Source of the DNA: Calothrix sp. PCC 7716
Lineage (GTDB): Bacteria > Cyanobacteriota > Cyanobacteriia > Cyanobacteriales > Nostocaceae
Reading direction: 5' to 3'
Assembly (NCBI RefSeq): GCF_019977735.1
Contig: NZ_AP025018.1
Coordinates: 248,001 to 312,000, forward strand
Length of the DNA: 64,000 nucleotides
Below the pieces are notes generated by a model. That model saw only the letters and a list, made by a program, of their open reading frames with translations. It was not told where the DNA came from and did not search any database. A program made the position numbers and the translations under genes. Below, one piece after another: positions 3,249 through 58,597 of this stretch (positions are counted from its first letter, which is position 1; every line of letters begins with the position of its first letter).

Positions 3249-3314
3249 AGAAACCAGGTTTCTATGCAAGATTTCTGTTTTATTAGAAGATTTTGATAAA
3301 GAAACCCGGTTTCT
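3249..3314. repeat. 65-bp dispersed element, pair 2
   Basis: AGAAACCAGGTTTCT (3249-3263) and AGAAACCCGGTTTCT (3300-3314) are spaced 51 bp apart in the 300-bp gap between two convergent genes (3154-3453). Nothing else was recognised in that gap. Confidence 0.8.
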
Positions 3315-51205: not shown

Positions 51206-53749
51206 TTACCGTCGCGGACTGGGTGTTTTTGATAATGATTTCCAGTCTTGAGCAATTTTTGGAGTCCACAACCAATTTTGATTGAGTTTATCGGGTTGGA
51301 AGCTTACCGGGTCTTCGCTTATTACTTTTTGTTGTAATTTTACTGCTTCGTAAAGATATCGCTCACGTTTTGCAGGGGGTTGTGAGCGCGCTGATTTATA
51401 TAATCCTAGCGCTAGTCCAGCATGAGCGATTAAGTCTTGGCGTTGCTTTGGTACTACCGATGCATTTGCTGCTGACATGTTTGAGACTTTTGGTTGTTGG
51501 TCTTTTGCAGCAATACTTAAGGCTTGAAACCAAGAATCATTAGCTAAATTAATATTACCTTCTGCGTAGTAAGCAAAACCTAAAGCGTTAGCATATACTA
51601 TAGAGTCTGGTTTAGCTTTAAATGCTGTATTCCAGTAACGACGAGCATCATCAATACTATATTTTTTGTCACCTGCTTGTATCGATTGCCATGCAAGGCG
51701 CCCGAATAAGAAACTGATGGATGGGTTATCGATGTTTCGCCGGGGTACTTGTTTAAGTACAGATTCTGCCTCTGCAAGTGCATTACGATTTAATAAGGCA
51801 TCGACGGCTTTTAATGCTGTGTCTAAATCACCTTGATTAAGTCTCTCAGTAGCAAATGCTGTAACTTTTTCAGTTTTTTCTTTCTCTAAATTAATTTTAC
51901 TGTAATCTGGCGCCGTTATTTGAGGTAAGTTAGATAACGTGTTTGGTTGACTTTGCCACCAGTTAATACCAACAGCAAATGCAATCGCACCTGCCCCAAC
52001 AAGTCCAATGAGTGGTATTAATTTTCTTGATTTGCGACGTGTTACGTTTGGTTCGCTAATGCTAATTGGGTCATGAGATGTTGCGATGTTTGTCGCTATC
52101 CCCTGAGTGTTACCAACGCTCATTTCGCTACGCTGGAGAGTATTTGATACTAAAGATTCTGACTCCCTTGCCGCTCTTGAAAGGCGCCATTTTTCGACTT
52201 CGCGGTCTAAAGAAGTTAAATCATCAGAGACTTCAACACCAGGAATACTATCATCATCTTCGTCGTCGTCAAGAATAGAAGTATTTATTGGAGTTTGTGT
52301 ACTTGCCGTTTTTTGCTGGTCAAGTTGGCGAAATAAATCGGAAACTATCGCCGAATCATCAGCATAACTTGGGTCATCATAATCTTCGATTTCGTCAACT
52401 AAGTCACCCCAAGTTTCTTCTCCTAACCAATCAAGTTCTAAGTCATTTTGTCCCAATGACCTCGACATGACATCATCGATTGGCAATGACATTTGAGCAT
52501 CATCACCGATATTACTATATAGTGCATTTGTTGCCCTTACATTTGGTGGTTCACCATACTCAGGCAATAATTCACTTCTTTGCTGTACATATAATCCAGG
52601 GCTAAGATTACCATTAAATTCTGATTGGAGATATAAAATTGGTAAAGCCCAATACATTTGGTGCGAACCGTAAGCGGAAATTAATCCCTGACGTACACGA
52701 CTTACGCACAAATCAATGGGATACCCTTGGCTGAGATTACGATAGAACAGTTGTGTTAGTGTAAGCGCTACTTCGTCAGGAATTCGTTCGGACATCGCTA
52801 AGACACTAGGAATACCCCGTTTAACTAAACTCTCAGCTAAACTTTGCTCTCCAGCTTCTGTAGTGCCTGTGCTGGCGCCATAAGCTCCCAAGCACGAATT
52901 AAACACCGCCATTTGGATGTTATTGTTAACCAGTAAACCAGCTAAATCATCACCGGTTAAAGTTTCTGTTAAACCAGTGCGTCGATTTACAAGATAAATT
53001 TCACCACCGTTTGCACCCAAGTTACTGTGACCTGAGTAATGCAAAATATGATAGCGTCCTTGTTCTAAGGCTTGCGTCAATTCTTCCCGTCCCGGTTGCT
53101 CAAGAAAGTGCAACTGTATCTCTGGGAAAAAATGACCACCTTCGGTAATATTTGGTGTTTGACGATTGAGTTCGGCTTGAAGTTTAATAGCTTCTTGTTT
53201 GAGCAAATCTAAACGCACTAAATCGGTTGGAGAGGCTAGCACCATTAATACCTTAATTCCACCCTCATCAGGTGGTATAGGCATATTAGTTGATGGTAAA
53301 CGTGAGGCGCCTGCTACTCCTGTTTGATAGCGAGAAAATGAAATATAAGGTCCTGTAGCAATGGGACGATCACCAGCGTGCATAACCTCCCAAGGTAAGC
53401 GCGCTAAACGATTATCTTTAATTCCAATACGCAAATGCAGAACTTGTTGATGGTTCTGTGCAATGCCTTGTGCAGTAATCCAACTATCTCTGAGAGTGCC
53501 TTGAAAAAGTTCGTTATATAATTGTTGACCCAGCGCCGCTAAGTTGACCGAGTTCCGCACCATTGCATCTCCCTGCAACACGGACTTAAGCGGGTCATTC
53601 ATAAGATGTCCAGCAGCAGCTAACCATTCAGCTACAGGCCAAGTCACCAGTTCTTCCGCTAATGGCACCCCAGACGCGACTTGTTCCGTTCGTACCAAGT
53701 AGTCATTTTGTCCTACCAGTGTTACGGAAATGTGAAATTCCTGGGTCAC
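51206..53749 (-). CDS. hetF: HetF, CHAT-domain (caspase-like) protein for heterocyst differentiation
   Basis: 847 residues. HetF is required for heterocyst differentiation in Nostoc/Anabaena, with HetR as the connected regulator. The CHAT protease dyad is intact: His241 in HILHYSGHSN and Cys286 in VFNSCLGAYG; the end of the domain reads RVRQGLISAYGSHQMYWALP. A low-complexity acidic region follows (~430-560), then one membrane helix (LIPLIGLVGAGAIAFAVGI, about 578-596) and TPR-like helices at the C-terminus (LDTALKAVDALLNRNALAEA; PDSIVYANALGFAYYAEGN). Identification rests on this architecture and on the array of small-RNA genes right upstream. The small RNAs are transcribed away from hetF. Confidence 0.88.
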   Translation of the reverse strand: MTQEFHISVTLVGQNDYLVRTEQVASGVPLAEELVTWPVAEWLAAAGHLMNDPLKSVLQGDAMVRNSVNLAALGQQLYNELFQGTLRDSWITAQGIAQNHQQVLHLRIGIKDNRLARLPWEVMHAGDRPIATGPYISFSRYQTGVAGASRLPSTNMPIPPDEGGIKVLMVLASPTDLVRLDLLKQEAIKLQAELNRQTPNITEGGHFFPEIQLHFLEQPGREELTQALEQGRYHILHYSGHSNLGANGGEIYLVNRRTGLTETLTGDDLAGLLVNNNIQMAVFNSCLGAYGASTGTTEAGEQSLAESLVKRGIPSVLAMSERIPDEVALTLTQLFYRNLSQGYPIDLCVSRVRQGLISAYGSHQMYWALPILYLQSEFNGNLSPGLYVQQRSELLPEYGEPPNVRATNALYSNIGDDAQMSLPIDDVMSRSLGQNDLELDWLGEETWGDLVDEIEDYDDPSYADDSAIVSDLFRQLDQQKTASTQTPINTSILDDDEDDDSIPGVEVSDDLTSLDREVEKWRLSRAARESESLVSNTLQRSEMSVGNTQGIATNIATSHDPISISEPNVTRRKSRKLIPLIGLVGAGAIAFAVGINWWQSQPNTLSNLPQITAPDYSKINLEKEKTEKVTAFATERLNQGDLDTALKAVDALLNRNALAEAESVLKQVPRRNIDNPSISFLFGRLAWQSIQAGDKKYSIDDARRYWNTAFKAKPDSIVYANALGFAYYAEGNINLANDSWFQALSIAAKDQQPKVSNMSAANASVVPKQRQDLIAHAGLALGLYKSARSQPPAKRERYLYEAVKLQQKVISEDPVSFQPDKLNQNWLWTPKIAQDWKSLSKTPSPRR

Positions 53750-53942
53750 AACTTCTCCTGTTCCTCTCCTAAATCACTTGATTGAAATGGGAATATTCAT
53801 TCATAAATATCTCTATAAATGTTCTCTTCCCTACTAATACCTTAGATGCATCACAACAGCGGAATGTTTCACGCTCTTAGGTATTACCCAAGCTTTTACC
53901 AGTTTATCCGGATATCATCGACTCGGCGCCGAACATCATCTA

Positions 53943-54002
53943 AAGGTAGATGCACCTTAATCTTCAGTCCCCCAATTGGTTTAAATCAAATGGGGGTTTT
54001 CT
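53943..54002 (+). ncRNA. NsiR1-like small RNA, unit 0 (divergent first copy)
   Basis: TCCGGA box at 53907-53912, then GGTAGATGCACC at 53945. The core diverges after it (TTAATCTTCAG) and the terminator stem is CCCCCAATTGG.../...AAATGGGGG followed by TTTTCTC, a weaker T-run. This unit is nearest to hetF, 190 bp from its start and transcribed away from it, and has a GGCGCC inside its promoter. Confidence 0.6.
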
Positions 54003-54147
54003 CTATTTTTACATAACGGTTGGGCGCCCTTAGCTCTCACTTATGAATCCCATGTAACTAATTTATCTCAAAAACAATATAGTTTCACTACAAATACTCA
54101 GTTTTTTAATTTATCCGGATAATGCTTGTGATTTTGAGAACAAGTAT

Positions 54148-54210
54148 ATGGTAGATGCACCCTGATAATTAACCTCCCCTAGTTGGAAGCTTTCCACTAG
54201 GGGTTTTTTG
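54148..54210 (+). ncRNA. nsiR1: NsiR1-like small RNA, unit 1
   Basis: TCCGGA box 54114-54119, 28 bp before ATGGTAGATGCACCCTGATA (54148). Intrinsic terminator: CCCCTAG-loop-CTAGGGG and TTTTTT ending near 54209. The box sits where HetR-dependent DIF-class promoters carry theirs. Confidence 0.75.
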
Positions 54211-54223
54211 TGTCTATCAAAAA

Positions 54224-54288
54224 AGAAACCCGGTTTCTGTCCAAAATTGTGATTTTTACTACAAACTCCAAAAAGAAACCGGGTTTCT
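54224..54288. repeat. 65-bp dispersed element, pair 4, inside the small-RNA array
   Basis: AGAAACCCGGTTTCT (54224-54238) and AGAAACCGGGTTTCT (54274-54288), 50 bp apart, lying between unit 1 and unit 2. Both palindromes are flanked on the right by GTCCAAAATT, so the interior also repeats. Confidence 0.85.
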
Positions 54289-54341
54289 GTCCAAAATTTC
54301 AAATTTATCCGGAATAGGCTTGTGATTTTGAGAACAAGTAT

Positions 54342-54404
54342 ATGGTAGATGCACCCTGATAACTCACTCCCTTAGCTGTTTAATTACGGCTGAGGGTTTT
54401 TTTT
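54342..54404 (+). ncRNA. nsiR1: NsiR1-like small RNA, unit 2
   Basis: TCCGGA 54308-54313; ATGGTAGATGCACCCTGATA from 54342. Terminator stem CCCTTAG.../...CTGAGGG followed by TTTTTTTT. Compared with unit 1, the stem has changed on both sides and still pairs, apart from one G-T pair. Confidence 0.78.
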
Positions 54405-54449
54405 ATGCAATTTTATCCGGAATAAGCTTGTAGCTTTGAGAACAAGTAT

Positions 54450-54514
54450 ATGGTAGATGCACCCTGATAACCCACTCCCCTAATTGACTAAATGTCTAGT
54501 TAGGGGTTTTTTTT
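54450..54514 (+). ncRNA. nsiR1: NsiR1-like small RNA, unit 3
   Basis: TCCGGA 54416-54421; core from 54450. Terminator stem CCCCTAA.../...TTAGGGG followed by TTTTTTTT. It starts only ~12 bp after the T-run of unit 2, the closest spacing in the array. Confidence 0.78.
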
Positions 54515-54585
54515 GGGATGCAAAAATTTTCTCGCTTGAAATAAAAAATCTTCCGGAATTGGTAGATGTAAGCACGAACAAATAG

Positions 54586-54649
54586 ATGGTAGATGCACCC
54601 TAATAATTCACTCCCTCGGACGGTAACAACCAACTGAGGGAATTTTTTT
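54586..54649 (+). ncRNA. nsiR1: NsiR1-like small RNA, unit 4
   Basis: TCCGGA 54552-54557; core from 54586 (ATGGTAGATGCACCCTAATA, one change). Terminator stem CCCTCGG.../...CTGAGGG then AATTTTTTT. GGTAGATGTAAG appears once more directly behind the TCCGGA box, a partial echo of the core. Confidence 0.75.
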
Positions 54650-54733
54650 GTCCATTTAAAGTGCAACAAAAATTTTTGCAATCAATAGCAACAAAAATAT
54701 CCGGAAAGCACTGGTTATCAAGAGAACAAGTAA

Positions 54734-54795
54734 ATGGTAGATGCACCCTGATAACTCACTCCCCTAGTAGACTGCCATCCGCTAGGGGTTTTTTT
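54734..54795 (+). ncRNA. nsiR1: NsiR1-like small RNA, unit 5
   Basis: TCCGGA 54700-54705; core from 54734. Terminator stem CCCCTAG.../...CTAGGGG with loop TAGACTGCCATCCG, followed by TTTTTTT. The same hairpin recurs in unit 7. Confidence 0.78.
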
Positions 54796-54880
54796 ATGGC
54801 TATATTTACGACCTTGAACCAAATTTTGAAGTTATACGCCAATTTGTCCTGAAGATGACCCTTAGATAACGAACAAGTAG

Positions 54881-54939
54881 ATGGTAGATGCACCCTGATA
54901 ACTCACTCCCTAGTAGATCTCCATCCGCTAGGGTTTTTT
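54881..54939 (+). ncRNA. nsiR1: NsiR1-like small RNA, unit 6
   Basis: The box reads TCCTGA (54847-54852) instead of TCCGGA. Core from 54881; terminator CCCTAG.../...CTAGGG followed by TTTTTT. The stem is one pair shorter than in unit 5. Confidence 0.72.
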
Positions 54940-54982
54940 ATTGTAATCATAACGAGACGAAATTGACAACTATCTTAAGTAA

Positions 54983-55047
54983 AGAAACCTGGTTTCTATG
55001 CAAAATAATCGTTTCTATTACAAGTTATCTAAAGAAACCAGGTTTCT
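54983..55047. repeat. 65-bp dispersed element, pair 5, inside the small-RNA array
   Basis: AGAAACCTGGTTTCT (54983-54997) and AGAAACCAGGTTTCT (55033-55047), 50 bp apart, between units 6 and 7. The centre base differs (T and A), and the two palindromes are reverse complements of each other. Confidence 0.85.
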
Positions 55048-55089
55048 AAGATTCGTCCTGAAAACGACTACTATGCAGCGAACAATAAA

Positions 55090-55150
55090 ATGGTAGATGC
55101 ACCCTAATAACTTACTCCCCTAGTAGACTGCCATCCGCTAGGGGTTTTTT
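55090..55150 (+). ncRNA. nsiR1: NsiR1-like small RNA, unit 7
   Basis: Box TCCTGA (55056-55061); core from 55090 (ATGGTAGATGCACCCTAATA). Terminator stem CCCCTAG.../...CTAGGGG then TTTTTT. Last complete unit; downstream DNA is degenerate. Confidence 0.72.
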
Positions 55151-55180
55151 CATGGCTATTCGCTGCCACACGTACAGCAT

Positions 55181-55294
55181 CTTAATAACTCAACATCTTA
55201 ATAACTCAACACCTTAATAACTCACTCCCTTGGTAGAGCGCCTGTTTATCGATACAATTATCGAATGAATACTTAACCTTCAGAAATGTTCCGG
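55181..55294 (+). repeat. Degenerate end of the small-RNA array
   Basis: The words CATCTTAATAACTCAA repeat three times (55181-55230), the last running into TCACTCCCTTGGTAGAGCG, which resembles the start of a unit hairpin, but no terminator or T-run is left. A further TCCGGA at 55290 has no core behind it. The gap 53750-55502 holds no protein gene. Confidence 0.6.
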
Positions 55295-55502
55295 AATTAG
55301 CCTTTTTTGCTCGTACTAACTAGTAAGGACTAATACTAGCTGCCGGAATGCGAGACAACGGTAGATTTTTAGTAGGTTTTTATATACTAGCACTATTACA
55401 AGTTTTTGGACTATCAAAGAGCATTAAATATAAGATAAATTATTAGATATTAAATTTAGCTACAACCTATACGTTGTTTAGTACTAATACACTACTAAAG
55501 AT

Positions 55503-55823
55503 ATGGCTTATTCTGTAATTAAGTTTTCGAGTGAAGATTGCGGTATTTGTCACAAAATGGCTTTCTATGACCAGAAAGTCTCAGCAGAGCTTGGTTTAGA
55601 GTTTATTGATGTCAAGATGCAGGATACAGCGACTTACCGTAAATATCGGCAAATACTTTTGAAGCAATATCCCGATAAGTCAGAGATGGGATGGCCAACT
55701 TATATTGTATGCTCGGCGCCGTCTGGAGAGTTTGAAATTGTAGGCGAGGTAAAAGGGGGACATCCCAAAGGAGAGTTTCGAGAACGCTTGCAAGCAGTTT
55801 TAGATTCTGTTGCTGCTCAATAA
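55503..55823 (+). CDS. Thioredoxin-fold protein with CGIC active site
   Basis: 106 residues. Active site EDCGICHKM has redox Cys13 and Cys16; the cis-Pro motif is GWPTYIV. The rest follows the thioredoxin fold, with an insert (MQDTATYRKYRQILLKQYPD). No signal peptide, so it is cytoplasmic. Cytoplasmic thioredoxin-like proteins of this size reduce enzyme disulfides in the cyanobacterial dark/light switch; the target is unknown. Faces a minus-strand gene 4 bp beyond its stop. Confidence 0.88.
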   Translation: MAYSVIKFSSEDCGICHKMAFYDQKVSAELGLEFIDVKMQDTATYRKYRQILLKQYPDKSEMGWPTYIVCSAPSGEFEIVGEVKGGHPKGEFRERLQAVLDSVAAQ

Positions 55824-56202: not shown

Positions 56203-58059
56203 TTATGCAGTTTTTTCTTCGTTTGTCACAATAAAGTGAGCGAGACCGTAACAGATGACGGCATTAACGAGAAGGAAAATTCTTGATATCCAACCGGCGC
56301 CTAAACCCCATACAGCAGGGTCAGAGAATGAACTAACCCCCAAACATGTGGCGATACCTATGGAAGAACCAATAGCAAACCACTTCAATTTTGGATGTCC
56401 TAACAGCAAAGCAACTAGACCTAAAGGAATAAGTACGCTGGCGAAGATAGGATTAAATGCATCAGTTCCTTGAATAGCATTACCAAGTTCAGGAATAGAG
56501 CTACCTAGTACACGGAAAGGCCACTGTGGTAAATCAAAGATATAAAGTCCTTTGAGAGGAAATAAACCTGAGCTACCAAAAAGTAAACCTGCCGATAAAC
56601 TCCAACTCCATGAGAATGGGAAGTAAACCCGTAGGAACCAAGCAAGCAGGTAAGAACCTACAACCATAAGAAGTTTTGGTATTAGTGCATATGCACCACC
56701 ATCAATCCAGAAACGAGGATTGAGATAGCCATTTTCACGTAACCAGCGCCAAAAGTCTTGGAAAGTAATTTGACCTTCGGTAGCTTGCTTAACTGCGGCT
56801 TCGGCGTTGAGTTGTCCGGCGCCGTAATAGTTTAAAGCATCTTCGTGAATAGCGCGTGCGGAACCAAGAAGTACGTTTTCAATTTCATCTGGATTTTCAA
56901 CTCCTGATGCACGAACTAAAGCGGCAACACCTGCAACGTGGGGAGATGCCATGCTAGTACCTTGCAAACCAAGGAATACTTCTTCTCCTTTGTTATCCAT
57001 ATCAACGGTTGCTTGGAGAACCTTACCAGCATCACTACCACCAGGGGCAGAAATATCAACACCTGCACCGTAGTTAGAATAAGGCGCCCTTTCTCCATCG
57101 GGGCCAAGTGCAGAAACACCGATAACGTGGGGATAGCGTGCAGGATATGCGGCGCCGTTAGCGTCTTCGTTACCAGCAGCAGCGATAATAACTACACCTT
57201 TACTGTGTGCATAGTCAATTGCTTCGCGCATCAACTGGCTTTCACCACCACCACCCAAGCTCATATTAATAACGTTGGCGCCGTTGTCAGCAGCAAAGCG
57301 AATAGCTTCGGCAATATCAGCAACAGTACCACCACCGTAATCACTAAGAACCTTTAAAGGCATAATACTGGCTTCATAGGCAATACCCGCAACACCCCAA
57401 CTATTATTAGTAGCTTGAGCAATAGTTCCGGCAACGTGTGTCCCATGTCCATTGTCATCGTTTGCTTTTTCACGGTCGTTAACAAAGTCGTAACCTTTGA
57501 CAAACTTAGTTTCAATCAAATCACGAACTTGTGTAACACCCGTGTCAATGACAGCAACGGTAACACCACTACCCTTGGTTTGTTTCCAGGCGCCTTCAAC
57601 ATAAATATTGTGTAAGTGCCATTGTTTACTGTAATAAGGGTCGTTTGCACCAGTGAATGAGACGCCAGGTTCTCTAGCTTCTTCAGGTCGAGGGTCAAGA
57701 TATTCTGCAAGTCTTGCGACTTGACCTTGTTTAGGAATCTTGTAAATATAGTTAGGTTCAATGAATTCGGTATCTTTTGCGAATTCAGAGCGCAACTGCT
57801 TAAGACGCGCTTTATCACCTTTGATAATATAAACGTTATCGTCTTTGGAAAATTTATTATCCAGCTTTGGCGTGACGTTGAACTGCTGCGAGATTTTATC
57901 TAAATCTTGCTGCAACTTAGTAGAGGGGATATCTTCCCGGAAGTCAAGGAGGAGCGTATCAAACTCCCCTTGGGCGCCAAGTCCCTGGAAGTTAACGAAG
58001 TTGAAAAGGGCCGCACACAGCCCTATCACAAACAAACAAGTTAGTATTAGCCTTCTCAT
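56203..58059 (-). CDS. Subtilisin-family (S8) serine protease with C-terminal membrane domain
   Basis: 618 residues. Signal peptide or anchor at the N-terminus (LILTCLFVIGLCAALFNFV), then a pro-domain ending near 140 (GVSFTGANDPYYSKQWHLHN). The catalytic triad is complete: Asp172 in AVIDTGVTQ, His205 in DNGHGTHVAG and Ser369 in GTSMASPHVAG, with the oxyanion Asn297 in AAAGNED. The C-terminal ~190 residues hold several membrane helices (LIPKLLMVVGSYLLAWFLRV; VLIPLGLVALLLGHPKLKWF; ILLVNAVICYGLAHFIV), which is unusual for subtilisins and would anchor the protease to a membrane, active site outside. Confidence 0.93.
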   Translation of the reverse strand: MRRLILTCLFVIGLCAALFNFVNFQGLGAQGEFDTLLLDFREDIPSTKLQQDLDKISQQFNVTPKLDNKFSKDDNVYIIKGDKARLKQLRSEFAKDTEFIEPNYIYKIPKQGQVARLAEYLDPRPEEAREPGVSFTGANDPYYSKQWHLHNIYVEGAWKQTKGSGVTVAVIDTGVTQVRDLIETKFVKGYDFVNDREKANDDNGHGTHVAGTIAQATNNSWGVAGIAYEASIMPLKVLSDYGGGTVADIAEAIRFAADNGANVINMSLGGGGESQLMREAIDYAHSKGVVIIAAAGNEDANGAAYPARYPHVIGVSALGPDGERAPYSNYGAGVDISAPGGSDAGKVLQATVDMDNKGEEVFLGLQGTSMASPHVAGVAALVRASGVENPDEIENVLLGSARAIHEDALNYYGAGQLNAEAAVKQATEGQITFQDFWRWLRENGYLNPRFWIDGGAYALIPKLLMVVGSYLLAWFLRVYFPFSWSWSLSAGLLFGSSGLFPLKGLYIFDLPQWPFRVLGSSIPELGNAIQGTDAFNPIFASVLIPLGLVALLLGHPKLKWFAIGSSIGIATCLGVSSFSDPAVWGLGAGWISRIFLLVNAVICYGLAHFIVTNEEKTA

Positions 58060-58177: not shown

Positions 58178-58597
58178 ATGGAACGTGGTCTTTTCTGGTT
58201 GCCTTTACTCGTAGCATTCTTTTGGTTAGCTTGGCAAGGTTCAAGGGAATTTAAAAAAGTTCAAGCTTACGAGACTTGGGCATCGCAGTTCGACAAGGCA
58301 AAATATGATATATACGCAGTTCTGGGTCAAAAAGACAGTAATATTACTTGGGGTAAGCCGACTCCCAAGGGTTTAACCAACCTCGAAACTTTTTCACTTA
58401 AAGATGTGGTTAATATCCAGCTATTAGTCAATGGCAACAAAGTAAATATTGAGCAACCACTCCAACGTGGTCGTTCCATTGAACTAGAGTTTAATTTTTC
58501 TGAACCCACAAAATCAGTACGAGTACCTTTTACTGAAGTACCCCTCGCAGCAAAATGGTGCGAATATCTACAAAAAGTTAAAAGTGCTGAGTGCTGA
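58178..58597 (+). CDS. Hypothetical single-pass membrane protein, 139 aa
   Basis: An N-terminal membrane helix (LFWLPLLVAFFWLAWQG, residues ~5-21) is followed by a soluble part: VQAYETWASQFDKAKYDIYA, then ITWGKPTPKGLTNLETFSLK and IQLLVNGNKVNIEQPLQRGR. No family recognised; the sequence reads as conserved in cyanobacteria. The last codons (KSAEC and TGA) are read from the first GTGCTGA heptamers, so an array supplies the C-terminus and stop. Divergent from the protease gene, 118 bp apart. Confidence 0.7.
   Translation: MERGLFWLPLLVAFFWLAWQGSREFKKVQAYETWASQFDKAKYDIYAVLGQKDSNITWGKPTPKGLTNLETFSLKDVVNIQLLVNGNKVNIEQPLQRGRSIELEFNFSEPTKSVRVPFTEVPLAAKWCEYLQKVKSAEC

Follow-up and report, generated by a model that had tools for sequence, protein, structure and literature searches.

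Calothrix sp. PCC 7716 carries an array of eight NsiR1 units at 53944-55152 on the plus strand of a 64,000-nucleotide (nt) stretch of contig NZ_AP025018.1 (here, the window), upstream of and divergent from hetF. The array was confirmed as a real NsiR1 locus of a Calothrix/Dulcicalothrix-type cyanobacterium, a kind of small RNA (sRNA) gene that is already known. Its units, scored with the covariance model RF02399 (NsiR1), the boxes before them, located by motif position, and hetF were as follows.

51206..53749, minus strand, hetF, 847 amino acids (aa), divergent from the array (NF045509 CellDiv_HetF, 1416 bits against a cut-off of 1200; Pfam CHAT)
53907..53912, plus strand, TCCGGA (DIF1) box of unit 1
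53944..54004, plus strand, NsiR1 unit 1, the hetF-nearest version with CACCTT (45.9 bits)
54114..54119, plus strand, TCCGGA box of unit 2
54149..54211, plus strand, NsiR1 unit 2 (61.1 bits)
54308..54313, plus strand, TCCGGA box of unit 3
54343..54404, plus strand, NsiR1 unit 3 (70.1 bits)
54416..54421, plus strand, TCCGGA box of unit 4
54451..54514, plus strand, NsiR1 unit 4 (57.8 bits)
54552..54557, plus strand, TCCGGA box of unit 5
54587..54648, plus strand, NsiR1 unit 5 (49.8 bits)
54700..54705, plus strand, TCCGGA box of unit 6
54735..54796, plus strand, NsiR1 unit 6 (67.9 bits)
54847..54852, plus strand, TCCTGA box of unit 7
54882..54942, plus strand, NsiR1 unit 7 (55.6 bits)
55056..55061, plus strand, TCCTGA box of unit 8
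55091..55152, plus strand, NsiR1 unit 8 (62.1 bits)

All eight units scored above the RF02399 gathering score of 39 (range 45.9-70.1 bits), and a 10-kb scan gave them E-values between 1.2e-12 and 1.2e-6, which excluded a chance origin of the array. This was the model check that the original prediction had proposed, and it bore out both the eight repeated units and the NsiR1 identity that had been read from the sequence. The CHAT protein, named hetF in the same prediction, matched the curated equivalog NF045509 above its cut-off. Among the 80 of 168 hetF loci that were kept, the closest named ones were those of Dulcicalothrix desertica PCC 7102 and Calothrix sp. HK-06, with 97% identity.

As predicted, a TCCGGA (units 1-6) or TCCTGA (units 7 and 8) box preceded every unit, and each unit ended in the expected stem-loop and T-run. 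Measured between the initial base of the box and the leading G of GGTAG, the distance was 36 nt in units 2-8, in line with the ~28 bp claimed between box and ATGGTAG, and 38 nt in unit 1; this spacing agreed with that of DIF1 promoters in the partial published text available. With the box 36 nt 5' of GGTAG, the RNAs would begin at the core or 1-2 nt earlier. The claim of a common core held in part, the exact core ATGGTAGATGCACCCTGATA being found only in units 2, 3, 4, 6, and 7, with the variant CACCCTAATA in units 5 and 8 and AAGGTAGATGCACCTTAATCTT in unit 1. Other details needed correction. Start-to-start distances were 108-209 nt rather than ~100-180 bp, and the claimed end at 55294 takes in a unit-less ninth TCCGGA at 55290, although the last unit ends at 55152. 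Nor would the RNAs be near-identical: in an 88-nt repeat family, six other units were 64-91% identical to the reference copy, and unit 1 fell outside the family. The 12.4-Mb genome has 15 occurrences of the exact 14-mer AGATGCACCCTGAT, all of them at places that are also RF02399 matches.

The unit nearest to hetF proved to be a separate version. We compared 80 named hetF loci, which are related to one another, so that the counts measure conservation and not 73 independent events. A boxed unit lay within 1200 nt of hetF in 76 of the 80 loci, at a distance of 168-203 nt in 59, 288-300 nt in 6, 362-374 nt in 9, and 662 and 696 nt in 2. Of the 77 loci that had a boxed unit, 73 carried CACCTT in the one closest to hetF (the exceptions being L087, L116, L122, and L126); only 2 units elsewhere contained it. 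None of the 59 near units contained the 14-mer AGATGCACCCTGAT, and 57 read GGTAGATGCACCTT[GA]ATCT; the exact 14-mer was found in 335 of the 368 other boxed units within 3.5 kb of hetF. No boxed unit was found at hetF in L072, with 392 nt of upstream sequence, or in L124 and L130, both of which were without one across 6 kb upstream of hetF. The array units are therefore not all one RNA, the one closest to hetF being conserved as a version of its own. Outside the family of the window, the CTT version was not seen in the six genomes from which a core copy close to the best HetF-like gene had been retrieved; there the hetF-nearest copy had the standard core, and the CTT version thus seems particular to the family.

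Partial text of the published work describes NsiR1 of Nostoc PCC 7120 as an RNA of ~60 nt encoded by a tandem series of 12 copies that lies upstream of hetF and has DIF1 promoters; copy 1 (NsiR1.1) runs antisense to the 5' leader of hetF, whose translation it inhibits, and the identical central copies (NsiR1.4) repress alr3234 (PMC9045159). Its promoter, PnsiR1, is assigned to the DIF+ class with TCCGGA at -35 in the text seen of PMC6133370. Each unit of the Calothrix array would be its own gene for an RNA of ~60 nt, with a DIF1-class box at about -35 and an intrinsic terminator; transcription would start at GGUAGAUGCACCCUGAU or a little earlier. Provided that hetF transcription starts upstream of unit 1, this unit would by position be complementary to the hetF leader, with a location and strand that fit an antisense role against the hetF 5' leader; as described for NsiR1.1, its RNA would most likely block the translation of hetF in cells that are differentiating. 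Units 2-8 would most likely act in trans, using the common 5' core as the pairing region. Units 3 and 7 paired with the hetF leader better than with shuffled leaders (z of -4.8 and -4.1). A simpler view, that eight redundant copies only raise one RNA fast during commitment and have no separate roles, would suit the identical exact core of units 2-4, 6, and 7 and the variation of copy number from 3 to 13 among the 53 loci for which 3 kb or more of sequence upstream of hetF was available. We regard it as unlikely, as 73 of 77 loci have a fixed, different version in the position closest to hetF and NsiR1.1 and NsiR1.4 of PCC 7120 were described as unlike in their effect on alr3234 (PMC9045159, in the part available).

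Core copies were not confined to hetF. An RF02399 search of the 12.4-Mb genome with E-values up to 10 returned 26 places, namely the 8 array units, 13 further core copies, and five matches (L047-L051) that were rejected because the core or terminator was missing. The 13 dispersed copies sat in eight places of the genome, and 5 of them exceeded the RF02399 cut-off. One was a solo copy lying antisense in the gap between lgt and cobM, and four formed a second array between gatB and argJ, the gene families being confirmed at both sites. The lgt-cobM-type copy, with the core TAGATGCACCCTGGTTAA, was found in 15 of 15 loci that had been fetched because they showed a match of that length (flanks read by eye from open reading frames [ORFs]); its box was TCCGGA in 14 and TGCGGA in genome G115. 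The gatB-side copy recurred in several families, again with flanks read by eye. Copies of the gatB-argJ type scored 17.5-33.3 bits in the Calothrix genome and 24-34 bits in seven loci of this or the palindrome type described below, and were treated as relatives and not filed as NsiR1 because these scores lie below the RF02399 cut-off. Two more pairs of core copies (L158-L162 and L163-L166), intergenic and with TCCTGA or TCCGGA boxes, recurred elsewhere in the genus, in 5 and 4 other species, respectively. The literature searched contained no mention of same-genome copies away from hetF, HetR-site copies, a cross-species nearest-unit rule, or a shared locus; the earliest NsiR1 papers (Ionescu 2010, Mitschke 2011, Muro-Pastor 2014) lie outside its coverage, so an earlier report of dispersed copies may exist.

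The gatB-argJ copies had no TCCGGA, and many carried the palindrome GGGN5CCC followed by a TATA-type -10. In 19 of the 21 copies classed as GGGN5CCC, the first G of the palindrome lay 41 nt before the T of TAGATG. GGGnnnnnCCC is given as a requirement for HetR binding, with GAGGGGTCTAACCCCTC as the hetP site, in the text available of PMC4192349. Among 54 palindromes over the fetched loci (42 distinct, overlapping loci being counted apart), 2 read GGGTCTAACCC, the reading of both G398 palindrome copies in L314, and 9 fit GGGTCAANCCC on one strand. Counting a core and palindrome as a pair when 24-38 nt apart, we found the combination in 57 of 386 cyanobacterial genomes and in none with the reversed control. 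We also classified the promoters of 160 distinct core copies from hand-chosen loci: 84 had TCC[GT]GA, 21 had GGGN5CCC, 12 had a box with one mismatch, 24 had a loose HetR-like sequence only, and the rest had neither type. The loose class was not counted as HetR sites, consisting mostly of same-genus gatB-argJ units with >5 nt between GGG and CC together with copies from family f8 caught by the lax pattern. The terminator of the gatB-argJ class behaves as a real stem: over 23 chosen copies, 93.2% of cells paired and 5 of 9 pairs changed on both sides; none of 500 shuffles reached the pairing or covariation score.

We also surveyed the distribution of the core, in which counts are not independent events because the genomes are related. 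RF02399 scored over the cut-off in 99 of 120 relatives, and AGATGCACCCTGRT was present in 96 of 386 genomes of the phylum, including 43 of 43 of the same family; the reversed core pattern (R at one position) was found in 0 of 386. The HetR_C search covered genomes outside the family of the window, 80 in all: the 62 that belong to the same order, plus 18 of the 24 class genomes that are not in family f41; the six dropped beforehand (G266, G329, G362, G323, G409, and G421) had no core. HetR_C was present in 37 of the 80. The core was found in all 37 HetR genomes and in 12 of the 43 without HetR, and core plus GGGN5CCC in 36 of 37 versus 1 of 43 (G079); by family, the combination was seen in 13 of 14 with HetR versus 1 of 13 without. 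Among the 12 HetR-negative genomes with the core, G088, G115, and seven genomes of family f8 had a true copy and no palindrome, and G079 had many copies. The matches of the other two, G090 and G364, lie inside ORFs and have no terminator; they were taken as chance, as were the CAGATG matches of family f8, which are placed likewise. Single core matches occurred in G161, G162, G170, and G387. nifH exceeded the cut-off in 29 of the 80 genomes and was absent from 22 of the 37 HetR genomes, all 22 of which had core plus palindrome.

The seven f8 genomes (genus g97; L261-L265, L277, and L278) had one copy each, consisting of the core and a GGAGAGTC..GCTCTCC-type stem, with no GGGN5CCC and no HetR. 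G079 (L260, L274, L283, and L323 among its loci) had an array beside a HetF-like gene and no HetR_C match, in an assembly of ~320 contigs.

One genome without nifH shared the locus itself. G104, a single contig of 99% completeness, has HetR and no nifH over the cut-off, and it carries a ten-copy array with 10 of 10 copies over the RF02399 cut-off. The genes next to this array are an S8-DUF5942 protease and a small ORF, as beside the array in the window, where their counterparts are as follows; the other flank differs.

56203..58059, minus strand, S8 protease with DUF5942 (domain match; 62% identical to its counterpart beside the G104 array)
58178..58597, plus strand, 139-aa ORF (58% identical to its counterpart beside the G104 array)

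The protein of the small ORF of G104 was 92% identical to one from Microcoleus sp. F8-D3, its closest named match, which makes G104 a likely Microcoleus relative. Microcoleus is not known to form heterocysts. The best HetF-like gene of G104 lies ~11 kb from the array and below the HetF cut-off, as did the HetF matches of all 80 genomes outside the family. Among the genomes with positions listed, core copies lay within ~600 nt of the best HetF-like gene in at least G085, G112, G079, G075, G166, and G140.

Taken as a whole, these data are very probably best explained by an NsiR1 locus in which each unit would be its own RNA gene, unit 1 would serve as a brake on hetF, and the array would form one branch of a wider HetR-linked family. 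The dispersed copies and the second array share the core with the window array and have other terminators. The wider family would be driven either by the DIF1 box or by the GGGN5CCC palindrome, which fits the HetR-binding requirement, so that HetR would activate it directly and also indirectly through DIF1 promoters (HetZ-dependent for hetR, patS, and patX). The distribution suggests that the core belongs to an older, wider sRNA family tied to HetR. We further consider it probable, with less assurance, that an ancient family of short RNAs, all with one unchanging 5' core, is controlled by HetR and that NsiR1 is its heterocyst-era branch; that the family is switched on directly by HetR (GGGN5CCC, typically beside gatB) or via TCCGGA (lgt-cobM and hetF); and that in heterocyst formers the hetF copy multiplied and the nearest unit changed from CCC to CTT to become a dedicated hetF brake. 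The family would be older than heterocysts because it is present in every HetR-bearing genome of the 80 outside the family, most of them without nifH.

Several observations weigh against this interpretation. G368 has HetR and no palindrome copy, and G079 has five palindrome copies and no HetR detected; HetR may be missing from the latter assembly because of its ~320 contigs. Neither promoter type was assigned to 19 of the 160 classified core copies, one of which (L147) does carry GGGN5CCC just beyond the distance limit of the classification. An exact palindrome was found in only 8 of 33 gatB-argJ units of the window's own genus, in only 1 copy in the Calothrix genome, and in only 20 of the 43 genomes of the family. 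With regard to targets, units 1, 3, and 7 showed no pairing signal with five hetP-like start regions (three from the same genome and two from G003; z of -0.72 to +1.59), a result that does not decide NsiR1 membership because the alr3234 orthologue is not settled among the tested genes. A search of the Calothrix genome for the complement of the core with up to 2 mismatches gave 77 matches versus 22 for the reversed pattern, 21 of the 77 being units, and yielded no clear targets. We fetched 52 of the 56 non-unit sites, leaving out four of five ATCGCGGTGCATCT sites; with starts called mechanically, 9 lay near a start, 17 in sense, 16 in antisense, and 10 between genes. Separately, in two species the hetP-like gene (L183, G000:C1:1008248-1008415, and L182, in G003) has two TGA inside its open frame and is possibly truncated.

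Other explanations of the copies fared worse. The many singletons in a 12.4-Mb genome, and the other palindromic repeats inside the array, might mark the dispersed copies as debris of a mobile repeat carrying a strong terminator and promoter, but the lgt-cobM copy stood in 15 of 15 loci picked for it, the gatB-side copy recurred in several families (flanks by eye), stems varied while the core stayed, and the palindrome tracked HetR, so that this origin appears very improbable. That nine TCCGGA/TCCTGA boxes within 1.4 kb titrate a DIF1-binding factor, with the RNAs as by-products, is scarcely credible, since boxes acting as a decoy would not each have kept a terminator and a transcribed core of 14 nt and the lgt-cobM copy is a single unit. 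Equally little can be said for tiny leaderless frames (ATG CAC CCT GAT or ATG GTA GAT GCA CCC TGA) from which the units would make peptides: ATG is seen by eye in two frames of the core, but every codon position of the 14-mer is equally fixed in 335 of 368 units, length and frame after the core vary between copies, and the hetF-nearest version would alter the peptide in nearly every locus.

The array documents NsiR1 in the Calothrix/Dulcicalothrix lineage, and the nearest-unit rule turns an observation from PCC 7120 into a two-part design that is conserved. Should the wider reading be true, the RNA arm of the HetR circuit predates heterocysts, these RNA genes would join the direct HetR targets, and the role of HetR and these RNAs in filaments that do not fix nitrogen becomes a testable question.

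The window has further features at and beyond the distal end of the array.

55175..55242, plus strand, decayed remnant of three 16-nt repeats and a partial unit, with no box and no core (repeat families D3 and D7)
55290..55295, plus strand, ninth TCCGGA with no unit behind it (motif position, alignment of relatives)

The 16-nt repeats of the decayed unit (55175-55224) number three in the window, whereas L052 has two, L053 and L055 have one each, and L054 has none, a variation that points to slippage at the array end. The ninth TCCGGA was kept in 4 of 4 aligned relatives, including L054, which is without the preceding remnant, and might serve the 106-aa ORF that follows (55503-55823) as a DIF1-type promoter. 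This ORF had no match to a Pfam or NCBIfam family and appeared thioredoxin-like by eye. The window also has an element of ~65 nt in which two arms, each near-palindromic (AGAAACC(N)GGTTTCT), stand ~50 nt apart; its four copies are at 54224-54288 and 54983-55047, both inside the array, and at 793-857 and 3249-3314.

The array resembles NsiR1 of PCC 7120 in its match to RF02399, tandem arrangement beside hetF, DIF1 boxes, length of ~60 nt, terminator, and divergent hetF-nearest copy. It differs in having eight copies rather than 12, two TCCTGA boxes, and central copies that are not identical, unlike the seven identical ones in PCC 7120, and in the further core copies elsewhere in the Calothrix genome. 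Nodularia spumigena CCY9414, likened here by description, has an array of 12 short repeats upstream of hetF, likewise tandem and with a different copy number (PMC3610870, partial text). An NsiR1-like RNA outside heterocyst formers is already published: RNA162 of Limnospira indica PCC 8005, of 57 nt and from an organism without heterocysts, fits the wide distribution found here, and the accessible part of that report gives one such RNA, with no HetR site or locus comparison (PMC8400943). Finally, the palindrome copies share GGGN5CCC with direct HetR targets such as hetP (PMC4192349, in the part available); unlike hetP, their product would be a short RNA and not a protein and HetR binding is predicted from sequence, and the array in the window has DIF1 boxes instead.

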